A DNA stretch of 64,000 nucleotides, taken from the NCBI RefSeq assembly GCF_002217655.1, contig NZ_NEWK01000001.1, forward strand, positions 320,001 through 384,000. The letters run 5' to 3'. Both the position numbers and the translations under genes were made by a program. This document shows positions 3,359 through 61,522 of this stretch, piece by piece (positions within the stretch are counted from its first letter, which is position 1; each line of letters opens with the position of its first letter). Under the pieces are notes generated by a model. That model searched no databases, was not told the DNA's origin, and saw nothing but the letters and a program-made list of their open reading frames with translations. Source of the stretch: Geobacillus thermocatenulatus. Its GTDB lineage: Bacteria; Bacillota; Bacilli; Bacillales; Anoxybacillaceae.

Positions 3359-4959
3359 CAGTGCCGACGAGCACTATTCGTCACCGCTCGCTGTTGATCA
3401 CCGGGCTCATTATTGCCATGCTCTTTGCGGCGTTGGACGGAACGATTGTCGGAACGGCCATGCCGCGCATCGTCGGGGAACTTGGCGGACTCGGCGTCAT
3501 GACGTGGCTGACGACGGCGTACATGCTCACGTCAACGACGGTCGTGCCGATTGCCGGCAAGCTCGCTGACTTATTGGGCCGGCGGATTGTCTATGTGAGT
3601 GGGTTGGTCATTTTTATGGCTGGTTCGGCGCTTTGCGGCATGGCGAACGATATGACCGAGCTCATCCTTTACCGCGGCATTCAAGGGTTAGGCGGCGGGA
3701 TTATGATGCCGATGGCCATGGTTGTCATCGGCGACGTCTTTACCGGCAAGGAGCGGGCGAAATGGCAAGGGGTGTTCGGCGGCTTGTACGGCCTTGCTTC
3801 GGTGCTCGGCCCGCAAATCGGCGGCTTTATCGTCGATCACTTGAACTGGCGCTGGGTGTTTTACATCAACTTGCCGGTTGGCATTCTCGCCACGGTGCTG
3901 ATTGCCATGGGGTTAAGCAAATATAAAGCCGAGGGGCCGGTGAAATTTGACATCGCCGGGATGGCGACGTTGACCGTGGGCGTCGTCAGCTTGCTGTTGG
4001 GCCTGACGTTTGGCGGCGACCGATATCCGTGGGGGTCGTGGCAAATCGTCTCGCTGTTTGTGGCGTCCGCTGTCTTTTTCGCTTTGTTCGTTTGGGCGGA
4101 AAAGCGAGCTGAAGAGCCGATCCTTCCGCTTTGGCTGTTTGGCAATCGGACGTTTACGCTGCTCAATGGCATCGGCTTTTTCATGAGCGTCGGCATGTTT
4201 GGCGCGATTATGTTTGTGCCGTTTTTCATGCAAGGCATCATCGGCGTGAGCGCCACCCAGTCCGGGACGATCATGACGCCGATGATGATCACGATGATCA
4301 TCGGCAGCGTCGTTGGCGGCCGTTTGGTATATCGAATCGGGGTGAAAACGCAACTCGTCGCCGGCATGATCATTATGGCGTCCGCATTTGGGCTCCTTGG
4401 CACGATGGATGTCGATACGTCCAAATGGACGGCGACGATGTATATGATTATTCTCGGTCTTGGCACCGGGCTTGTGATGCCGATTTTGACGCTCGCCTTG
4501 CAAGAAAGCTTCCCAAAATCGGAGCTTGGCGTCGTGACCTCTTCGAGCCAATTTTTCCGCTCCATTGGGGGGACGTTCGGGATGACGGTGCTTGGCGCCA
4601 TCATGAACCATCGGTCGAGCGTCTTGCTTGACGAGCGGCTCATGCCAAAGCTTGAAGCGCTGCCGGCGCAGGCGAAGGGGCTTGTCGACCGCTTCGCCGA
4701 TATGATTCACACCGACCCGCAAGGCTTGTATTCCGTCTTGCTCAGTCCGGAAGCGATGGCGAAAATTCCAGCGCCGCTTCGAGACATGTTCGTGCCGGTG
4801 CTGAAGCAGTCGCTTGTCGATTCCCTGCAAGCCGTCTTTTGGTTCGGGCTCGCGTTTATCGCGGTCGGCTTGCTTTTCGTGTTCGGCTTGAAGCGGATCG
4901 TCTTGTCCGATCGGGCGGAGGCGATGAAGCCGTTGAAGCAAGGAACCGAGACCGAGTGA
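3343..4959 (+). CDS. DHA2-type MFS multidrug exporter
   Basis: The 538-residue membrane protein has the motifs of 14-helix drug:H+ antiporters (EmrB/QacA/LmrB type): the LDGTIVGTAMPRI segment in helix 1, GKLADLLGRR (motif A), LYRGIQGLGGGIMMP (motif B) and GVFGGLYGLASVLGPQIGG (motif C). I start it at 3343 because GGGAGAGAAG lies at good spacing; an in-frame ATG at 3328 is possible. It overlaps the TetR gene and probably exports a compound sensed by that regulator. The substrate cannot be predicted. Confidence 0.9.
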   Translation: MEKAIAVPTSTIRHRSLLITGLIIAMLFAALDGTIVGTAMPRIVGELGGLGVMTWLTTAYMLTSTTVVPIAGKLADLLGRRIVYVSGLVIFMAGSALCGMANDMTELILYRGIQGLGGGIMMPMAMVVIGDVFTGKERAKWQGVFGGLYGLASVLGPQIGGFIVDHLNWRWVFYINLPVGILATVLIAMGLSKYKAEGPVKFDIAGMATLTVGVVSLLLGLTFGGDRYPWGSWQIVSLFVASAVFFALFVWAEKRAEEPILPLWLFGNRTFTLLNGIGFFMSVGMFGAIMFVPFFMQGIIGVSATQSGTIMTPMMITMIIGSVVGGRLVYRIGVKTQLVAGMIIMASAFGLLGTMDVDTSKWTATMYMIILGLGTGLVMPILTLALQESFPKSELGVVTSSSQFFRSIGGTFGMTVLGAIMNHRSSVLLDERLMPKLEALPAQAKGLVDRFADMIHTDPQGLYSVLLSPEAMAKIPAPLRDMFVPVLKQSLVDSLQAVFWFGLAFIAVGLLFVFGLKRIVLSDRAEAMKPLKQGTETE

Positions 4960-8156: not shown

Positions 8157-8564
8157 TTTCATCCTATTTCGCGCAGGAGACTCCCACTTCAACGACCAAA
8201 AGGAGTAAGTGGGAGAGGAATGCGCGTTCCCCCTTTCTTTTGTGTATGATCGAATAAAGACGTGGAGAAAACCGTTCAATAAAGGCACTCCAATAACTGC
8301 TACTCGATGTATGGAGTTAGTTACAGGAAATGTTGTAACCGTAAAACATCGAGCGTAGGTCCGTCTGTTGTGTGTGGAAGCCAAGTACTGCCAACAGACA
8401 CACCGAGAGAATCGGTAACGATGCAGGCATGACCGGCGTCGTTGGGTAGTCGTCAACCTGCCCCCTGATGCAACCTCAAGTCAAGGAAGGAGGACGACGT
8501 CCGTTTGCACTTCTGGGGAGTTGCAAGCCCCCACTTCAAGCGTTAGCTAAGTGGGGGCAGTTGA
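8157..8564 (+). mobile_element. ORF-less IS200/IS605-like element with structured interior, copy 1
   Basis: A 408-bp stretch is repeated at 61073-61474 at roughly 85-90% identity by eye. Each end has an imperfect hairpin: CTCCCACTT/AAGTGGGAG on the left and GCCCCCACTT/AAGTGGGGGC on the right, as IS200/IS605 elements have. There are no terminal inverted repeats and no credible ORF. The interior has conserved stems (for example GTCTGTTG/CAACAGAC) and a GGAAGGAGGACGACG ribosome-site-like stretch with no gene behind it. My best reading is an IscB-type element that kept its ends and its guide (omega, HEARO) RNA but lost the nuclease gene. Confidence 0.6.
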
Positions 8565-8911
8565 CAGACGATGCATAGGTCTAAAAGGGATGTCGCTTCG
8601 CTGTCCACTGCTGGTGATCGAGGTGCCAGTTGCTCAATGAAAAGAGTTGACGTATGATGGAGTCAAAAACAGCGGCATATGTCTGAAGAGAGGAAAGAAG
8701 GCAGCGTCAAAAGTTGGATGAAAACGCCATACAGACGATTCCATTGAGGATTCGCCCTTGACCGCCCCCATCAAAGGTGCGAAGGGTTCGCCCAGGACGA
8801 CGGGGGCAAAAAAGAAAGCGATCGAAAAGCCGTCGTTCCCATCTCCAAATGTTCACTTCGACACGGTTCGGTTGGTCAAAGGTCATCCGGAAAAAAGGAA
8901 GGGGAGAAAAG
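8565..8911. other. Intergenic region without a recognised gene
   Basis: I see no credible gene in these 347 bp. A short inverted pair, GCCCCCATC (8764) and GACGGGGGC (8800), could form a weak hairpin. The last 20 bp hold the AAGGAAGGGG ribosome site of the DUF1284 gene. Confidence 0.5.
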
Positions 8912-24193: not shown

Positions 24194-24873
24194 CGAAAAG
24201 GAACAGCTCATTCGAGAGAAGGATGCTTGCATAGATGGAACAACTTGATGCACTCACTACCTGCGTTTGTTTTGGGCATCATGAGGAAGCAGGGAAAGAT
24301 CGATGGTTCTAGAGAACTGGTAAAAAACGGCCAATTTCGCTGAGCCTGTTGCCTTCAGCCGAAAGAGAAGCGCCGATTTTCCAAATCTTCTCCGTTTGAG
24401 AAAAGAGTTCGTTTCTTGTGATTTTTCACTAAATCGCTAGGCCTTCTAGGAGAATGGTGAAAAACGACCGATTCCGTGGAATCCATTGCTTTCGGTTGAA
24501 AGAGGGACGTTGATTTTACAGGACTCCTCAATTTGAGAAGAGTCGGCTTTTCCCAAATTTCCACTACATCACCGACTTTCTAGGCTTTTTCGCGGAAGTT
24601 GTCTGATCCGTCCCTTTTGAAAAAAGGTCGTGCATAGAGGACAGCTGTGGGTTGGCTGGCCCATCTAAAAGAGAAAAGATGGCGGTGATGTCTCCTTACC
24701 GTTATCAATGGAGGCACTCGGCCATGCCGTGGGTGGGGACGATGACGGTCCTAGCACCTTAGACGCCCGTCGTCGAGGGTGTGGCGTGAGGGCGGGTTCG
24801 ATGCCCGATCTAACTGATTTTGTTTCTATGTGCTTCACTGGCCATGCTATAATCAGAGCAGGGAGGTGAAGCC
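24194..24873. repeat. Non-coding region with two decayed tandem repeats
   Basis: At about 24315-24455 and 24456-24600 the same ~140-bp pattern occurs twice, diverged. Markers are GGTAAAAAACGGCC versus GGTGAAAAACGACC, CTTCAGCCGAAAGAG versus TTTCGGTTGAAAGAG, and CGCTAGGCCTTCTAGG versus CGACTTTCTAGG. No ORF runs through them. A TATAAT box lies at 24848-24853, before the ribosome site of the next gene. Nothing else is recognised. Confidence 0.5.
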
Positions 24874-41456: not shown

Positions 41457-41612
41457 GATTCCCGTGAACGGGTGTACTTATGTGATTGGTGACAATCCAT
41501 TGAAGAAAGTCAACATTATACTCCCCGCCGCGAAAGTTAGGCAATACTTGTTTTGGTGGCAACATCAAAACGCATTGCCTATCATCAGTCGCAGGGAAAG
41601 GGATGGACAGCT

Positions 41613-42539
41613 ATGCAGGTATACGTGGCGAGGCAGCCGATATTCGATGTTGAACGGAATGTGGTGGGGTATTGTTTTATCGAAGCGGCATTTACGATGG
41701 ATTGAATGGCGATCAAGCCACATTGGAAGTGCTGATTAACAGTTTTATGAACATTGGGATTGAGAAGTTGACCAATGGAAAGCCTTGTTTTGTCAACTTT
41801 ACAGAGAATTTGTTGAAATAGGAAGTGCCATTGCAATTCCCACCTTCTGTGATTCTAGTGGAGATCCTTGAGACGATTCCGATGTCGAATTGGCTTTTGC
41901 GAATGTGCCGCAAGCTGAAGTCCCGTGGATACACGATCGCGCTCGACGATTTTGTTTTAGACCGTTCTTATCTCTCTTTGTGTCCGTACGACGATTTCAT
42001 TAAAGTGAATCTTTCTCGTGTTTCTGTGCAGGACGCATCATCGTTCATGAAGATATCCAACTTTTTCAGAGTTAAATGGCTGGCGGAAAAAGTGGAGCTG
42101 AAAAAATGGATCTCCGTATTGGCCTTGCAAGAGTTGTACAATCTACATGCTCGAGATGGGCAAAAGCATCTGTATGAAGAAATTGTCACATTGTCCTTTA
42201 ATTAGAGGGAAAGCTTGTGAATTGCTTGGGGGAGCTGTTTGGCTATGAGCAGGACAAGGCAAGTTTGTTTTTAATGGGGTTTGTTCGCTGCTGGACGTTC
42301 TTTTGCATCAATCATTGCCGCAAATTTTAGACGAGCTGAACATTCATGATGAATATACAAGCTTGTCTTTTGCATAACAAGTGTCGCTTTTGTGCTGTCT
42401 ATGACCTCGTCTGGTGTATGGAATGAGGAGATTGGGAACAAATGACGCGTTTGTAGACGCTTGGGCCTGATGGAGGATGCTGCTGTTGCGTTATCAGGGA
42501 GCGATTGAGTGGGCCGTGTGGGTACAGAGGGATTTGTAA
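41613..42539 (+). pseudogene. Decayed copy of the EAL-HDOD gene
   Basis: The sequence closely follows the intact gene at 44436-45677 but has frameshifts (already after VARQPIFDVERNVVGY), a stop where the intact copy reads LLKYEVPL, and an internal deletion of about 320 bp that joins KWLAEKVE to LKKWISVLALQEL. The region before the start is also similar to that before the intact copy. So a duplication was followed by decay of one copy. Confidence 0.88.
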
Positions 42540-42615
42540 CTCGCTTCACAAGACTCGGCGAATGGCATAGCCAGAGGACTTTCATCAGAAAGAAGTTTTA
42601 GGGGGGAGTTTTTTT

Positions 42616-43881
42616 ATGAGAAACTTTAAAAAGATATTTTCTTTTTTCTCCGTTCTTGCCATTATTCTCACTATCCCATTTCTGAAAACGAATACGGCAT
42701 TCGCCAGTTCAGCGACAGACCTGCCGTTCGATACATCCGTTTCTGGATACATTACTGATACTGATGATCAACAAATCTATGCGATAAATTTAGAGAAAGC
42801 TGGAAGAATTACAGTTAAACTCAACTCCTATATAGCTGCGGTGAATATAAAATTGGAAGATTCAGATGGAAATGAAGTATTCAGGAAATATGTTTCTGAA
42901 GGCAATTCGGCGAATCCAGCCAAGTGGTCAGGCTGGGTGGATCTTGAAGCAGGGACATATTATATTCAGGTTTATAAAGAATATACTTATACAGGGAAAT
43001 ATGATTTAAAAGTGAGCTACCAAGAAGCCAATAACAATGAAATTGAACCCAATGATGGAACAGTACAAGCTCAACCACTTAAGGTCAATAGCCAAACAGT
43101 AACCGGATTGATTAGTTGGAATGACAGTGCGGATGTTTACAAGGTTGATTTGTCGAAAGCGGGCCGGGTAACGGTTAAGCTGGATTCTTATATAGCTGCG
43201 GTGAATATAAAATTGGAAGATTCAGATGGAAATGAAGTATTCAGGAAATATGTTTCTGAAGGCAATTCGGCGAATCCAGCCAAATGGTCAGGCTGGGTGG
43301 ATCTTGAAGCAGGGACATATTATATTAAAGTTTATCAAGAAAGCTCTTATACGGGGAAATACACACTTAACGTCCAATGCCCTGATTTATTGCCTGCACC
43401 GCCAACTGTAAATTTAGTCAGCAATAAGAGCAATGTTGTAACGGGAAAAACAGTACCAAATGGAACGGTTTCTGTAAAAATCAATTCAAAAGTATATAAC
43501 GGTAAAAGCGACAGCAAAGGTTTGTTCAGTATCAAGATTCCAACACAAAGCGCAGGAACAAAACTTTATATTATGGTAAAGGATAAGTTCGGCGATACAA
43601 GCAAGGAGCGAGTCGTTGTTGTAGTAGACAGAATTCCTCCCACTGCTCCAATTGTAAATAGTATTACTAGTAAATCTAAAGTGATTACAGGTAAGGCGGA
43701 AGCGAACTCCACAGTCATTGCATATGTGGCAAATCAAAAGATTGGTAGTGCTAAAGTGGATCAGTATGGAAACTATGTGATGAAAATTAAACCGCAAAAA
43801 GCAGGAACTCTCATTCGAGTCATTTCGGTTGACAGGGCTGGAAATAAGAGCACTGCAGAAGTTGTAAAAGTGAAAAAGTAA
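42616..43881 (+). CDS. Secreted protein with two PPC-like and two Ig-like domains
   Basis: The 421-residue protein has a signal peptide (MRNFKKIFSFFSVLAIILTI, cut near AFA). Two PPC-like (pre-peptidase C-terminal) beta domains follow at about residues 37-137 and 141-256, each with IAAVNIKLEDSDGNEVF and WSGWVDLEAGTYYI. Two Ig-like domains (residues ~262-342 and 344-421) have ITGKAEANSTVIAYV-type motifs. There is no sorting signal. It could bind the cell surface or glycan. The two PPC units share a 138-bp stretch with one mismatch. Confidence 0.75.
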   Translation: MRNFKKIFSFFSVLAIILTIPFLKTNTAFASSATDLPFDTSVSGYITDTDDQQIYAINLEKAGRITVKLNSYIAAVNIKLEDSDGNEVFRKYVSEGNSANPAKWSGWVDLEAGTYYIQVYKEYTYTGKYDLKVSYQEANNNEIEPNDGTVQAQPLKVNSQTVTGLISWNDSADVYKVDLSKAGRVTVKLDSYIAAVNIKLEDSDGNEVFRKYVSEGNSANPAKWSGWVDLEAGTYYIKVYQESSYTGKYTLNVQCPDLLPAPPTVNLVSNKSNVVTGKTVPNGTVSVKINSKVYNGKSDSKGLFSIKIPTQSAGTKLYIMVKDKFGDTSKERVVVVVDRIPPTAPIVNSITSKSKVITGKAEANSTVIAYVANQKIGSAKVDQYGNYVMKIKPQKAGTLIRVISVDRAGNKSTAEVVKVKK

Positions 43882-43945
43882 AAAGTAGTTTGGGTGCAAC
43901 AGCGATACTATGTCTTTTGACTTTTGTTGGAGACGGATCTTGCAA

Positions 43946-43995
43946 CTCACATTTTGTACCCTCCCGCTTTTTGGTGGGAGGGTGTGAAATGTGAG
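43946..43995 (+). terminator. Long hairpin after the PPC protein gene
   Basis: CTCACATTT and ACCCTCCC pair with GGGAGGGT and AAATGTGAG around a 10-nt loop. An outer pair GACGGA (43933) and TCCGTC (44022) could extend it. There is no T run directly after, so termination is uncertain; a transposon end is also possible. Confidence 0.45.
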
Positions 43996-44179
43996 ACATA
44001 AAAACAAAATACAGAGTCTCCTCCGTCTTTCCATATCCTAGGAGTAACAGAAGAAGATCGCTCCATTGCTTCCCCGCCCATTCATGAACACCGGCAGCCG
44101 ACGGAATCCCCTCTGTCAAGAATTAGTACTGTCCTCCTAACCCCAGAAAAAGAGAAAAATGGTACAATAAAAAAGAAAA

Positions 44180-44338
44180 CTGAATCCTTGATAAAGATGC
44201 GTGTAAAACTGCCAAGAAAACCTTGTTAAATCAACAAATATGGCCCTTGGGGGTTCTTCTCCTAATAGAAATGAAGTTGAACCTCGGGATGATTGGGTTT
44301 TTCAGCATTTTTTTGATACGCTTCTGTCATGGATTCAG
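44180..44338 (+). mobile_element. MITE family 3, copy 1
   Basis: A 159-bp element starts CTGAATCCTTGATAAAG and ends CTTCTGTCATGGATTCAG, imperfect inverted repeats. It matches 63523-63692 in reverse orientation (shared CTGCCAAGAAAAC, GGGGTTCTTC, GATTGGGTTT). No target duplication is visible for this copy and no ORF is present. Confidence 0.7.
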
Positions 44339-44435
44339 GTAGAGAGACAAGCCAGCCAGCGCTGGCTTTGAGCAGAACTAAGGGAACAAATGGGCTCCGT
44401 CTTCATCAATTGCGCAGGGGGAGGGATGGACAGCC

Positions 44436-45677
44436 ATGGAGGTGTACGTGGCGAGGCAGCCAATATTCGATATTGAACGGAATGTGGTGGGGTATGAACT
44501 GTTTTATCGAAGCGGCAAACGCAATTTTTACGATGGATTGAATGGCGATCAAGCCACATTAGAAGTGCTGATTAATAGTTTTATGAACATTGGGATCGAG
44601 AAGCTGACCAACGGAAAGCCGTGTTTTGTCAATTTTACAGAGAATTTGTTGAAATACGAAGTGCCGTTGCAATTCCCGCCGGCTGCGATCGTAGTGGAAA
44701 TTTTGGAGACGATCCCGATGTCAAACTGGCTTTTGTCCGTGTGTCGCAAGTTGAAGTCTCGAGGATACACGATCGCGCTCGACGATTTTGTTTTAGACCG
44801 TTCCTATCTTCCGTTATTTCCATATGTCGATCTCATTAAAGTCGACCTTTCCCGCGTGTCCATGGAGGACGCATCGTCGTTCATGAAAATATCGAAAACG
44901 TTGGGCGTTAAATGGCTGGCAGAGAAAGTGGAAACGTATGAACAATTTTGGCGGGCTGCTGACATGGGATTCATGTATTTCCAAGGCTTTTTCTTCAGCA
45001 AACCTGTGATTTACGGGGACAAAGCCCTCCCGTTTGGTTCCCATCCATCTTATTGGGCGCTGTTGGGGTGTTTGAGCGAGGATGATCCGAATATTCACGA
45101 AATTGCCGAGATGATTGAGCGTGATCTGGCGCTCACGTACCGATTGTTGAAATTGGCCAATTCCATGATCGTGTCACATCGCCCGAAAATTAAGTCGATC
45201 CGTCATGCGATCATGTTATTGGGCATCAATGAATTGAAAAAGTGGATCTCCGTATTGGCCCTGCAAGAGTTATACGATCTGCATGCTCAAGATGGGCAAA
45301 AGCATCTGTATGAAGAAATTGTCACATTGTCTTTTATTCGAGGAAAAGCTTGTGAATTGTTGGGGGAGCTGTTTGGCTATGAGCAGGACAAGGCGAGTTT
45401 GTTTTTAATGGGGGTTTGTTCGCTGTTGGACGTTCTTTTGCATCAACCATTGCCGCAAATTTTAGACGATCTGAATATTCATGACGATATACAAGCCTGC
45501 CTTTTGCATAAAACAGGTCGTTTTTGCGCTGTCTATGACCTTGTTTGGTGCATGGAGCGAGGGGACTGGGAACAGATGATACGGCTATGCGGACAATGGG
45601 GCTTGGCGGAGGATGAGGTGTTGTCGCGCTACCAGGAAGCGATTGAGTGGTCGGTGCGGGTGCAGGGGATTTTGTAG
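44436..45677 (+). CDS. EAL-HDOD domain protein (YuxH-like)
   Basis: The 413-residue protein has an EAL domain (residues ~1-200: EVYVARQPIFDIERNVVGYE, NFTENLL, VVEILETIP, GYTIALDDF, IKVDLSRV) and an HDOD domain (~205-400: LTYRLLKLANSMIVSHRPKI, IRHAIMLLGINELKKWISVL). The EAL signature itself reads EIL and several metal ligands of active phosphodiesterases appear missing, so it may not degrade c-di-GMP. YuxH-type proteins have this order. A decayed duplicate lies 1.9 kb upstream. Confidence 0.87.
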   Translation: MEVYVARQPIFDIERNVVGYELFYRSGKRNFYDGLNGDQATLEVLINSFMNIGIEKLTNGKPCFVNFTENLLKYEVPLQFPPAAIVVEILETIPMSNWLLSVCRKLKSRGYTIALDDFVLDRSYLPLFPYVDLIKVDLSRVSMEDASSFMKISKTLGVKWLAEKVETYEQFWRAADMGFMYFQGFFFSKPVIYGDKALPFGSHPSYWALLGCLSEDDPNIHEIAEMIERDLALTYRLLKLANSMIVSHRPKIKSIRHAIMLLGINELKKWISVLALQELYDLHAQDGQKHLYEEIVTLSFIRGKACELLGELFGYEQDKASLFLMGVCSLLDVLLHQPLPQILDDLNIHDDIQACLLHKTGRFCAVYDLVWCMERGDWEQMIRLCGQWGLAEDEVLSRYQEAIEWSVRVQGIL

Positions 45678-47563: not shown

Positions 47564-47683
47564 TACAATCATGATAAAGGTACAGCTAAGGAAACTTAGC
47601 GTCACAAAGCTACAGGGGCTAAGGGGAAACCTATGCCAGCCAGCTGCCATTACCAAAAAATATAAAAGAAGGAATTGGTAATG
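47564..47683 (+). ncRNA. Cyclic-di-GMP-I (GEMM) riboswitch with a start-codon anti-helix
   Basis: A TACAAT -10 box at 47564-47569 precedes an aptamer at about 47576-47656. It has the GEMM core: AGCTAAGGAAACTTAGCG hairpin with its GGAAAC loop, TCACAAAGCTACAGGGGCTA, then CCTATGCCAGCCAGCTGCC. The P1 3' strand lies in CATTACC (47648-47654), which can pair either with GGTA (47579-47582) or with GGTAATG (47677-47683), which contains the start codon. If P1 forms on ligand binding, the start is freed, so an ON switch is inferred. Confidence 0.82.
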
Positions 47684-49029: not shown

Positions 49030-51366
49030 TTGAAAAAACGGAACAAATACGCGGCGGCGAGCGTGGTGTTGGCGTTGGGGCTGCTTGCTCCGGCTGTGTC
49101 GCCGACCGCAGCGGGCGCGGAAGACCGAGATGTCGTCAAGCTGCGCATTTTAGAGACGACGGACGTACATATGAATCTTGTCAACTACGATTATTTCAAA
49201 GATAGTCCAACGAATGAGTTCGGGTTGTCGAAAACGGCACGTTTGATCGAGCAGGCGCGCGCTGAACAGCCGAATACGCTTCTGTTTGACAACGGGGACT
49301 TGATTCAAGGAACGCCGCTTGGCGACTATGTGGCCAAAGTGAAGCCGCTGCAAGACGGAGAAGTGCATCCAGCGGTGAAACTGTTGCATTTGTTGAAGTA
49401 CGATGCGGCAACAGTCGGGAACCATGAGTTCAACTACGGCTTGGATTTCCTCAATGAAGTGTATGACGATGCCAAGCTGCCGATCGTGAATGCGAACGTG
49501 TACCGTGACGATCATGATCAAAATCCGGATAACGATGTCAACTATTTCACGCCGTATCAAATTTTAGAGAAAGAAGTCGTTGATGAAGACGGGGAGAAAC
49601 ATACGCTGAAGATCGGCGTCATTGGCTTTGTGCCGCCGCAAATTATGGATTGGGACAAAGCGAATTTGCAAGGGAAAGTGATTGCGAAAGACATTGTGCA
49701 GTCGGCGCAAAAGTATATTCCAAAAATGAAAGCGGAAGGGGCCGATTTGATCGTTGTGCTATCGCACTCGGGCATTGAGACCGGCGGAAACAGCCCGAAT
49801 ATGGAAAATGCATCGTATTATTTGACGCAAATTCCGGGGGTCGACGCCGTGTTGACCGGCCACCAGCATAAAAAATTCCCGGCCCTTCCAGGCACGACAC
49901 CAGATTTTCCGGACGGAAACGGAATCAACAATGAAACCGGCACGATTAACGGTGTTCCTGTGACGATGCCGGGTTCATGGGGCGATACGCTCGGCGTGAT
50001 CGACTTGACGGTCGAGCAAGTCGACGGAAAATGGAAAGTGACGCAAGCGAAAGCCCAACTCCGTCCAGTGTATGACAAGGCGACGAAAACGCCGCTTGTC
50101 GACAGCGACCCGGCTGTTGAGCAGGCGATCCAAGCGGAACATGAAGCGACGATTCAGTACGTCCGCAGCCCGGTTGGAAAAACAACGAGTCCGATCAACA
50201 GCTATTTTGCGCTTATCAAAGACGATCCGTCCGTGCAAATCGTCACGAATGCGCAAAAATGGTATGTCGAAAAGATGTTGAAAGGGACGAAATATGAAGG
50301 TCTTCCGGTGTTGTCGGCCGGCGCTCCGTTCAAAGCCGGCGGACGCGGCGGGGCGAGCTACTATACCGACATCCCGGCAGGGGAAATCGCCATTAAAAAC
50401 GTTGCTGATTTGTACTTGTATCCGAACACGGTGTATGCGCTGAAAATTACGGGAGCCGAGTTGAAAGAATGGCTTGAGTGGTCGGCGGGGCAATTCAACC
50501 AAATCGACCCGAACAAGACAGACGTTCAGCCACTCGTCAACAACGACTTCCCGACGTACAACTTTGACATTATGGATGGCGTGACGTACGAGATCGATGT
50601 CACCGAGCCGGCGAAATACGACAAAAACCAAAATGTGATCAATCCGAATGCGAACCGGATTAAAAACTTGAAATTCGAAGGCAAGCAAGTGACGCCGAAC
50701 ATGGAATTTATCGTCGCAACGAACAACTATCGGGCGACGACAAACCGGATCATCAATCCGGGCGGGAAAAACACGATTTTGGCTGCGCCGGATGAAAACC
50801 GGCAAGTGATCATCGATTACATTCGGGAAAACGGAACGATCAACCCGTCGGCGGATGGCAACTGGCGGTTTGCGCCAGTGAAAGGGAAAGCGCCGGTGAC
50901 CGTCACGTTTGAATCGTCGCCGGAAGCGCAAAAATACTTGCCGCAAGACGGTAGCATCCGCTATGTCGCCGCCTTGCCGAGCGGATTTGCCCAATATGAA
51001 TTTGCCTTGCCGCTTTGGAAGGAAGAAAAGCCCAACCCGCCCAAGCAGCCCGAGAAGCCAACCACTCCTCCAAGCCAAGTGAAAAAAGTCTACTGGGATG
51101 GCGTGGAGTTGAAAAAAGGACAAATCGGCCGCTTGACAGTGCAAAAGCCGATCAATCTATGGAAACGGGCGAAGGATGGGCGCCTTGTGTTCGTCCGCAT
51201 CTTACAGCCTGGGGAGGTGTACCGCGTCTACGGGTATGACGCGCGCTTCGGCGGGCAGTACGCGGTCGGCGGCGGGTATTACGTGACCGACATCGACACG
51301 CACATCCGCTACGAAACGCCGTCGCATCTTACAGCCTGGGGAGGTGTACCGCGTCTACGGGTATGA
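49030..51366 (+). CDS. Secreted 5'/3'-nucleotidase (cyclic-nucleotide phosphodiesterase type) with a SLAP-like tail
   Basis: The start is TTG 49030 behind GAGGGGGA. The 778-residue protein has a signal peptide (cut near AAGA), a calcineurin-like phosphoesterase domain with metal motifs LETTDVHMNL, FDNGDLIQGTPLGDY, TVGNHEFNYGLD, VLSHSG and LTGHQHKKFP, then the 5-nucleotidase C domain (near FKAGGRGGASYYTDIPAGE). A Pro-rich linker leads to a module (VYWDGVELKKGQIGR...GEVYRVYGYDARFGG) shared with the protein at 16896. A 127-bp duplication shifts the frame, so the last residues are HLTAWGGVPRLRV instead of KEKLKLVNGQ. Confidence 0.9.
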   Translation: MKKRNKYAAASVVLALGLLAPAVSPTAAGAEDRDVVKLRILETTDVHMNLVNYDYFKDSPTNEFGLSKTARLIEQARAEQPNTLLFDNGDLIQGTPLGDYVAKVKPLQDGEVHPAVKLLHLLKYDAATVGNHEFNYGLDFLNEVYDDAKLPIVNANVYRDDHDQNPDNDVNYFTPYQILEKEVVDEDGEKHTLKIGVIGFVPPQIMDWDKANLQGKVIAKDIVQSAQKYIPKMKAEGADLIVVLSHSGIETGGNSPNMENASYYLTQIPGVDAVLTGHQHKKFPALPGTTPDFPDGNGINNETGTINGVPVTMPGSWGDTLGVIDLTVEQVDGKWKVTQAKAQLRPVYDKATKTPLVDSDPAVEQAIQAEHEATIQYVRSPVGKTTSPINSYFALIKDDPSVQIVTNAQKWYVEKMLKGTKYEGLPVLSAGAPFKAGGRGGASYYTDIPAGEIAIKNVADLYLYPNTVYALKITGAELKEWLEWSAGQFNQIDPNKTDVQPLVNNDFPTYNFDIMDGVTYEIDVTEPAKYDKNQNVINPNANRIKNLKFEGKQVTPNMEFIVATNNYRATTNRIINPGGKNTILAAPDENRQVIIDYIRENGTINPSADGNWRFAPVKGKAPVTVTFESSPEAQKYLPQDGSIRYVAALPSGFAQYEFALPLWKEEKPNPPKQPEKPTTPPSQVKKVYWDGVELKKGQIGRLTVQKPINLWKRAKDGRLVFVRILQPGEVYRVYGYDARFGGQYAVGGGYYVTDIDTHIRYETPSHLTAWGGVPRLRV

Positions 51367-51450
51367 CGCGCGCTTCGGCGGGCAGTACGCGGTCGGCGGC
51401 GGGTATTACGTGACCGACATCGACACGCACATCCGCTACGAAACGCCGTC
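51197..51450 (+). repeat. 127-bp tandem duplication at the end of the nucleotidase gene
   Basis: 51197-51323 (starting GCATCTTACAGCCTGGGG) is repeated exactly, as far as I can read, at 51324-51450. The unit is not a multiple of three, so the gene now stops at 51366 in the second copy. The original stop lies at 51484, after the second copy. Confidence 0.92.
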
Positions 51451-61029: not shown

Positions 61030-61052
61030 GAATGATGGTGGAGATTAAACTG

Positions 61053-61076
61053 ACGCCTCATTCGAGGCGTTTTTTC
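61053..61076 (+). terminator. Terminator after the ATPase gene
   Basis: ACGCCTC and GAGGCGT form a stem with the loop ATTC, followed by six T. The mobile element copy 2 starts within the T run. Confidence 0.82.
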
Positions 61077-61474
61077 ATCCTATTTCGCGCAGAAGACTCC
61101 CACTTCAATGACCAAAAGAAGAAAGTGGGGGGAATGCGCGTTCCCCTTTCTTTTGTGTATGATCGAATAAAGACGTGGAGAAAACCGTTTAATAAAGGCA
61201 CTCCAATCACGGCTGCTCGATGGATGGAGTGGGTTGCAGCAAACGTTGCAACCGTCAAACATCGAGCGTAGGTCTGTCTGCTGTGTGTGGAAGACAAGCG
61301 CTGCCAACAGACACACCGAGAATCGGGAACGATCAGGCATGACCCAGCGACGTTGGGCAACGGTCAACCTGCCCCTTGATGCTACCCCAAGTCAAGGAAG
61401 GAGGACGACGTTCGTTTGCACTTCTGGGGAGTGGCAAGCCCCCACTTCAAGCGTCAGCGAAGAGGGTTAGTTGA
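61073..61474 (+). mobile_element. ORF-less IS200/IS605-like element with structured interior, copy 2
   Basis: The 402-bp element matches 8157-8564 along its whole length, from TTTCATCCTATTTCGCGCAG to AGTTGA. The left hairpin CCCACTT/AAGTGGG and the interior are kept; the right hairpin has decayed (GCCCCCACTTC against GAAGAGGGTT). It interrupts the ABC exporter operon between the ATPase and the next permease. Confidence 0.6.
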
Positions 61475-61522
61475 TGAAAACGAATTTGCACGTTGATTCG
61501 TGATGTGAGAGGGGTTTCCACA

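Follow-up and report, generated by a model that had tools for sequence, protein, structure and literature searches.

Results

Borders and insertion of two gene-less elements

The window, a stretch of 64,000 nucleotides from Geobacillus thermocatenulatus (contig NZ_NEWK01000001.1, positions 320,001 to 384,000), contains two copies of a short element without a gene. Their features are as follows.

8158..8162, plus strand: TTCAT target pentanucleotide (host DNA) and predicted TAM, constant in scored copies and seen in both empty sites (G009, G003)
8163..8565, plus strand: copy 1, gene-less element of 403 bp with right end TTGAC, bounded by empty-site alignment
8181..8215, plus strand: left-end subterminal hairpin
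8215..8241, plus strand: second left-end hairpin with a T-rich tail, terminator-like
8245..8250, plus strand: -10-like box TATGAT, preceding the structured RNA
8263..8415, plus strand: structured domain in place of tnpB, supported by pair counts and by covariance model matches in three other families
8263-8267/8288-8292, plus strand: P1, with double changes
8303-8309/8347-8353, plus strand: P2, with double changes
8319-8325/8334-8340, plus strand: P3, with double changes
8363-8370/8392-8399, plus strand: P4, without double changes
8403-8406/8412-8415, plus strand: P5, with double changes
8417..8565, plus strand: predicted TnpB reRNA scaffold (right-end RNA), starting with hairpin P6 (8417-8427/8433-8443)
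8528..8557, plus strand: right-end subterminal hairpin, 8 nt ahead of the guide, from sequence and predicted fold
8566..8585, plus strand: predicted guide of copy 1 (right flank), starting directly after TTCAT in the empty sites
61074..61078, plus strand: TTCAT target of copy 2, beside the T-tract of a terminator-like hairpin
61079..61475, plus strand: copy 2, element of 397 bp whose terminal TTGAT and right-end stem look decayed
61328..61475, plus strand: predicted reRNA scaffold of copy 2, from alignment, with P6 and the right-end stem altered
61476..61495, plus strand: right-flank sequence predicted as the guide of copy 2 from the arrangement in copy 1

The first-pass annotation of this DNA had noted the same unit at 8157 and 61073. 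Both units are real and are 89% identical over positions 1-399 of the 408-bp query. The whole genome (3.56 Mb in two contigs) yielded 11 unit matches, six of them full or nearly full-length and five partial. Searching with the joined flanks, we found empty sites for copy 1 in the relatives G009 and G003 at base resolution: the TTCAT of the left flank runs straight into the right flank AGACGATGCAT. Copy 1 therefore spans 8163-8565 and the right flank would be its guide. It is inserted 3' of TTCAT without target duplication, like IS200/IS605 elements. The same search found no empty site for copy 2, whose borders were set from the shared end sequences. The starts given earlier include the target site and the ends fall just short of the right border. 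TTCAT is found on the left of 69/69 and TTGAC on the right of 67/67 scored gene-less copies, each count covering only copies whose alignment reaches that end, with window copy 2 (TTGAT) outside the 67. Identical ends occur in five of the five tnpB elements for which both ends had matched. Given its TTGAT end and altered right-end stem, copy 2 looks decayed. It sits at the T-tract of a terminator-like hairpin (window 61052-61078), and a T precedes TTCAT in 44 of 69 copies, so terminator tails may be favoured insertion sites.

As proposed earlier, there is a hairpin near each end (8181-8215 and 8528-8557); complete tnpB elements have a left end with 86-92% identity to that of the unit (query 1-65). 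The earlier statement that the unit is without an ORF holds in the sense that it contains no plausible gene. Its longest ORF encodes 129 aa on the minus strand, and we rejected it as a gene: the frame is open in 16 of 40 aligned copies, the product has no Pfam match, and substitutions by codon position (409/371/444) show no bias. A second coding interpretation, the middle as the C-terminal tail of another TnpB, was also rejected; the 41-aa ORF in question matched only two homologous elements and, by chance, plasmids, and indels of 4 and 10 nt together with the lack of codon bias contradict it. The unit is a gene-less element of the IS200/IS605 type. Like a PATE, it combines subterminal hairpin ends and borders common to gene-bearing relatives with the lack of a gene inside.

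A predicted TnpB-type guide RNA in the right half

Comparison with full TnpB elements, which had been suggested as a check, revealed same-ended tnpB elements that share both the left end and the right-end RNA. The right 148 bp (query 261-408) are 87-95% identical over 129-148 nt to 15 tnpB loci, and the homology begins at the tnpB stop codon and runs to the right end. For the tnpB locus of the same genome (L042), in which the right end is present and a left end is not recognisable, identity over this stop-to-right-end region is 91.9%. The locus encodes a TnpB of 372 aa without stops that matches the NCBIfam model guided_TnpB with 217 bits (cut-off 100 bits) and resembles solved TnpB and Cas12f chains.

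According to PMC8612924, the RNA used by the ISDra2 TnpB comes from the right end and takes its guide from the right flank, and the motif at the insertion site serves as TAM. PMC10278001 adds that TnpB trims the 5' end of its RNA and that a right-end hairpin lies within about 10 nt of the guide. In copy 1 the hairpin ends at 8557 and the guide starts at 8566, and in the empty donor sites of both relatives TTCAT is directly followed by the guide AGACGATGCAT. Since RNA position and right-flank guide match the usage of ISDra2 TnpB, the RNA appears to be of the TnpB reRNA kind with the guide on the right. Judged from sequence, the elements contain the RNA that TnpB elements have at their right end. 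The guides had been sought in the left flanks, just before each unit; the empty site of copy 1 instead places its guide in the right flank, from 8566, and by analogy that of copy 2 would start at 61476. The GGAGGACGACG stretch, previously taken for the ribosome site of a deleted gene, lies downstream of the tnpB stop in the part common to tnpB loci and is thus better explained as reRNA scaffold. It is predicted to form a small hairpin in the tnpB locus of the same genome, and the predicted fold differs in the window copy.

We compared scaffolds with TnpB loci leaving out the end hairpin. The scaffold of the window copy is 92-93% identical to two Geobacillus-type TnpB loci and 74% to that of G038, whereas the scaffold of the copy in G037, which belongs to the same genus as G038, is 95% identical to the G038 locus and 77-78% to the two Geobacillus-type loci. 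From these identities the reRNA scaffold appears to follow the TnpB lineage. Full-length TnpB proteins with at least 68% amino acid identity are encoded in 11 of 20 carrier and 4 of 21 non-carrier genomes (p=0.025, uncorrected for kinship). Nine of the 20 carriers are without a TnpB at this level, including G037, G020 (13 matches to the middle) and G006 (8 matches). The only Y1 transposase match in the genome of the window is split over two frames. The family has 121 TnpA matches, and in the 30 of these loci that we retrieved no TnpA had these ends. L238 and L239, and by its right end L236, were considered as mobilising TnpA and rejected because they represent a different IS605 with other borders.

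A structured domain in the middle

Between the left end and the reRNA lies a domain of about 150 nt. It is absent from the tnpB and iscB elements examined here, and the idea that the middle is part of same-ended tnpB elements was dropped: apart from a short similarity at P1 there was no BLASTN match. We assessed its pairing in alignment A2, which comprises 38 distinct sequences (41 rows with identical ones merged; truncated L080 left out). In A2, 97.2% of the P1-P6 cells form standard pairs and 7 pairs are changed on both sides, with 36 such cells compared to 12.1 in shuffles and at most 3 when the structure is slid. Some rows have an interrupted P2, a helix that RNAalifold by itself does not predict; it does predict P1, P3, most of P4, P6 and a P5 variant. 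When the distant copies of G150 and G084 were included in a plain MAFFT alignment (A4), double changes appeared in P1 (2 pairs), P2 (4 pairs) and P3 (1 pair), in total 17 cells compared to 4.2 in shuffles and at most 6 when slid. Alignment A3 with the same two genomes, which was fitted to the covariance model and so leans to its structure, gave double changes in P5 (2 pairs) and P6 (8 pairs). Many of these double changes come from two related distant rows and therefore represent few independent events. The GTCTGTTG/CAACAGAC stem described in the first-pass annotation is present as P4 but shows no compensatory changes. An ACTCC/GGAGT pseudoknot was considered and left out of the counts, as the double changes belong to P1 with CTCCA. 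When 4227 Rfam families were scanned against the two copies, seven matches with E<=10 were obtained, the best with an E-value of 1.5 and all far below the gathering scores; neither copy matched an Rfam group I intron, which an IStron would contain.

Upstream of the domain, the -10-like box reads TATGAT in copy 1 and TATAAT or TATACT in copies of other families (alignment A1; L268-L270, L276). A two-hexamer promoter scan of both copies found nothing, so that a promoter at this box is putative. The second left-end hairpin has an unbroken stem of at least 8 pairs in 8 of 11 rows and is weak in copy 1; a consensus scan scored it in copy 2 but not in copy 1. As same-ended iscB elements also have a T-tailed hairpin, it is perhaps only a feature of the left end.

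Distribution

At least a piece of the unit is found in 13 of 14 genomes of the genus (own included). The middle alone (window 8222-8416) gave 99 matches, some of them partial, in 20 of 41 genomes and 4 of 9 genera of the family. An exact pattern derived from the middle occurs in 41 stretches among 84,980 species genomes, all in records of Geobacillus, Anoxybacillus or Parageobacillus, and being exact it is blind to distant copies in other families. With a covariance model, 9 of 299 genomes of the order had matches, six from the same family and three from other families: G150 (87 bits), G084 (81 bits) and G223 (31 bits, two copies). These four distant copies have TTCAT, the left hairpin, the TATAAT/TATACT box, P1 with a conserved loop, P6, a longer reRNA and the right hairpin. 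P6 is mismatched in G223, which also is without P2-P3, and none of the four has P4 at the expected position; three copies end with TTGAC and one (L270) with TTGAT.

A phage collection searched with the window middle and the L276 element gave no match. Separately, a full copy with TTCAT and TTGAC borders (L282) is located on the minus strand of the viral contig IMGVR_UViG_2630968389_000004 at approximately 4100-4500, so phages or prophages can carry the element. On plasmid NZ_AP022558.1 of Geobacillus subterraneus, a fragment at approximately 106069-106252 (L059/L197) consists of the left hairpin and the middle without the right end and is positioned directly upstream of a gene for an N-6 DNA methylase, of which it may form the leader.

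Comparison with IscB elements

The first-pass annotation regarded the units as IS200/IS605-like elements that had kept their ends and guide RNA and lost iscB. Gene-less IS200/IS605 elements with ends and a guide RNA is an adequate description, but this RNA is of the TnpB right-end type rather than a HEARO RNA of IscB. Scanning with the Rfam HEARO model (RF02033), one of the checks proposed at the time, gave no match in the window, on either strand of the two copies (E<=10) or in the genome. As a positive control, the same model gave 50 matches in 10 of 41 family genomes, 46 of them over the cut-off in 9 genomes; among the copies of the middle listed for these relatives, none overlaps a HEARO match. 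G017 and G020 account for 18 and 14 HEARO matches, and the other eight matching genomes have 1 to 5 each.

Alignment to full iscB elements, likewise proposed, showed that the ends are shared and the interior is not. Six of eight iscB/HEARO loci, hand-picked from family genomes, are complete elements with both the TTCAT and the TTGAC end, as listed here.

L284-L286 and L289-L291 (in G007, G013, G011, G027 and G023): same-ended iscB/HEARO elements of 1529-1534 bp, except L284 with 3162 bp and a further ORF of 418 aa

NCBIfam names two scanned proteins of same-ended elements IscB with 393-395 bits. In these elements iscB and HEARO are on the opposite strand and HEARO starts at the TTGAC border, so that here, too, the guide would be the right flank. 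When seven gene-less elements were compared with six iscB elements (E<=0.01), only the ends matched, that is, the last 19-60 nt and in some cases parts of the first ~110 nt; in the L054-type element the first 76 nt are 92-99% identical to iscB elements. The three kinds of element, with tnpB, with iscB and without a gene, thus have their ends in common, and those without a gene carry RNA of the TnpB kind.

Discussion

We consider these units most probably (with a probability of about 0.7) to be non-autonomous IS200/IS605 (peel-and-paste) elements that act as mobile stand-alone reRNA genes using TnpB in trans. The borders, the TTCAT/TTGAC ends, the insertion of copy 1, the homology of the right 148 bp and the compensatory changes are the part of this explanation that can be read from the sequence. 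Transcription would start at approximately position 8256 and proceed past the right end into the flanking DNA. A TnpB from elsewhere, for which the genome offers the uninterrupted 372-aa protein, could then trim and load the RNA. The resulting RNP would cut the empty allele (TTCAT plus right flank) that is left after excision, and repair would copy the element back. In this way every copy would function as an independent gene for a guide RNA and depend on TnpB and Y1 transposase supplied in trans. Speaking against this explanation are the nine carriers without a close TnpB, the split Y1 match and the lack of a same-ended TnpA among the loci retrieved, the unrecognisable left end of the tnpB locus in this genome, the negative promoter scan, the weaknesses of P2 and P4, the small number of independent double changes, the fact that stem conservation fits ssDNA as well as RNA, and the decayed look of copy 2.

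The ISDra2-type TnpB reRNA, as described in PMC8612924, is likewise a right-end RNA with its hairpin just before a guide from the right flank and a motif directly 5' of the target. Compared with it, the gene-less elements are without tnpB in cis and have a -10-like box and the ~150-nt domain in addition, upstream of the reRNA. Resemblance to IscB/HEARO elements of the same bacterial family extends to the TTCAT/TTGAC borders and similar end hairpins, but those elements carry both iscB and HEARO on the opposite strand, whereas the gene-less ones have neither. In the openly licensed literature that we searched the gene-less element is not described, which does not in itself establish its absence from print.

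A broader view, which we hold tentatively and rate at slightly less than even odds, is that of an old lineage of RNA-only mobile elements in at least four families of one order. These would be self-transcribed guide-RNA genes whose dedicated 5' domain recruits a TnpB from elsewhere or stabilises loading into it, and hence a parasite of the nuclease that secures its own retention without coding for a protein.

Alternatively, the units could be plain PATEs or MITEs, derived from tnpB and iscB elements by internal deletion or recombination and moved by Y1 transposase, with reRNA and middle as functionless remnants and P1 as leftover tnpB coding sequence. The first ~50 nt of the middle are collinear with tnpB codons ~236-258 apart from a 25-nt deletion, with 16/16 nt identical in the G037 copy, and three of 24 pairs of gene-less and tnpB elements (the G037 copy with L042 and with L211, and L054 with L211) scored better than all 200 shuffles; in the other 21 pairs the similarity was weaker or not significant. 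A remnant of tnpB may indeed have been the starting point of the domain. For Alicyclobacillus, PMC10278001 reports that cleavage is inhibited by a segment of the tnpB mRNA close to RuvC-II. The iscB-like first 76 nt of the L054-type element look like a recent recombination of ends, and a close TnpB is absent from nearly half of the carriers. PATEs are known, among them the Halanaerobium PATE, an ends-only IS200/IS605 derivative that, according to PMC7290912, also kept the right end and the 3' end of tnpB. However, the elements described here differ from that PATE by their many copies in several families and by an interior with compensatory changes, which are found in the middle as well as in P6. 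Functionless remnants also fit poorly with the order of left end, -10-like box, P1, P6, reRNA and right end being kept in other families of the order, and with a scaffold that seems to track the TnpB lineage. We therefore regard this explanation as unlikely, yet as the most serious competitor of a stand-alone reRNA gene.

That the middle is structured single-stranded DNA required for transposition of an ssDNA circle, and not RNA, seems very improbable. Conserved stems by themselves do not distinguish RNA from ssDNA, and IS200/IS605 elements transpose in single-stranded form, but the same-ended tnpB (5/5) and iscB (6) elements inserted without the middle, and the -10-like box precedes it on the strand of the reRNA. 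Still less credible is the original idea of an orphan HEARO guide RNA with its guide in the left flank: the complete same-ended iscB elements of relatives, with their well-scoring IscB proteins, fit it as far as the ends go, but a model that finds HEARO readily in those relatives finds none in the copies or the genome, the interior is not shared and even the iscB elements take their guide from the right flank.

If the elements indeed rely on TnpB supplied in trans, the guide RNAs of OMEGA nucleases are able to turn into selfish genes in their own right, which would represent a step from transposon-bound guides toward separate guide loci as in CRISPR. Guide RNAs kept on mobile DNA without a nuclease gene have reportedly been seen before, in non-autonomous IStrons (by Zedaveinyte et al. 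in 2024) in an IS607/group I intron setting and in stand-alone omega RNA loci (by Altae-Tran et al. in 2021) in an IscB setting. The ISGst elements of Geobacillus stearothermophilus, thus of the same genus, are said to comprise TnpB and IscB systems of the IS200/IS605 type (Meers et al. in 2023). The domain ahead of the reRNA, which matches no Rfam family, would offer a new handle on the making of TnpB RNPs. A direct test is feasible in thermophilic hosts that have several natural guides, with tnpB, iscB and gene-less elements sharing the same ends.

Elsewhere in the window, an epsC RNA (24683-24807, 117 bits) and a c-di-GMP-I riboswitch (47569-47651, 70 bits) were found, both over their gathering scores. 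Two regions approximately 2.8-3.1 kb apart within 41590-45579 are mutual repeats with 83-93% identity in pieces, perhaps the result of a gene duplication, and positions 51196-51449 hold a perfect tandem duplication of 127 bp.
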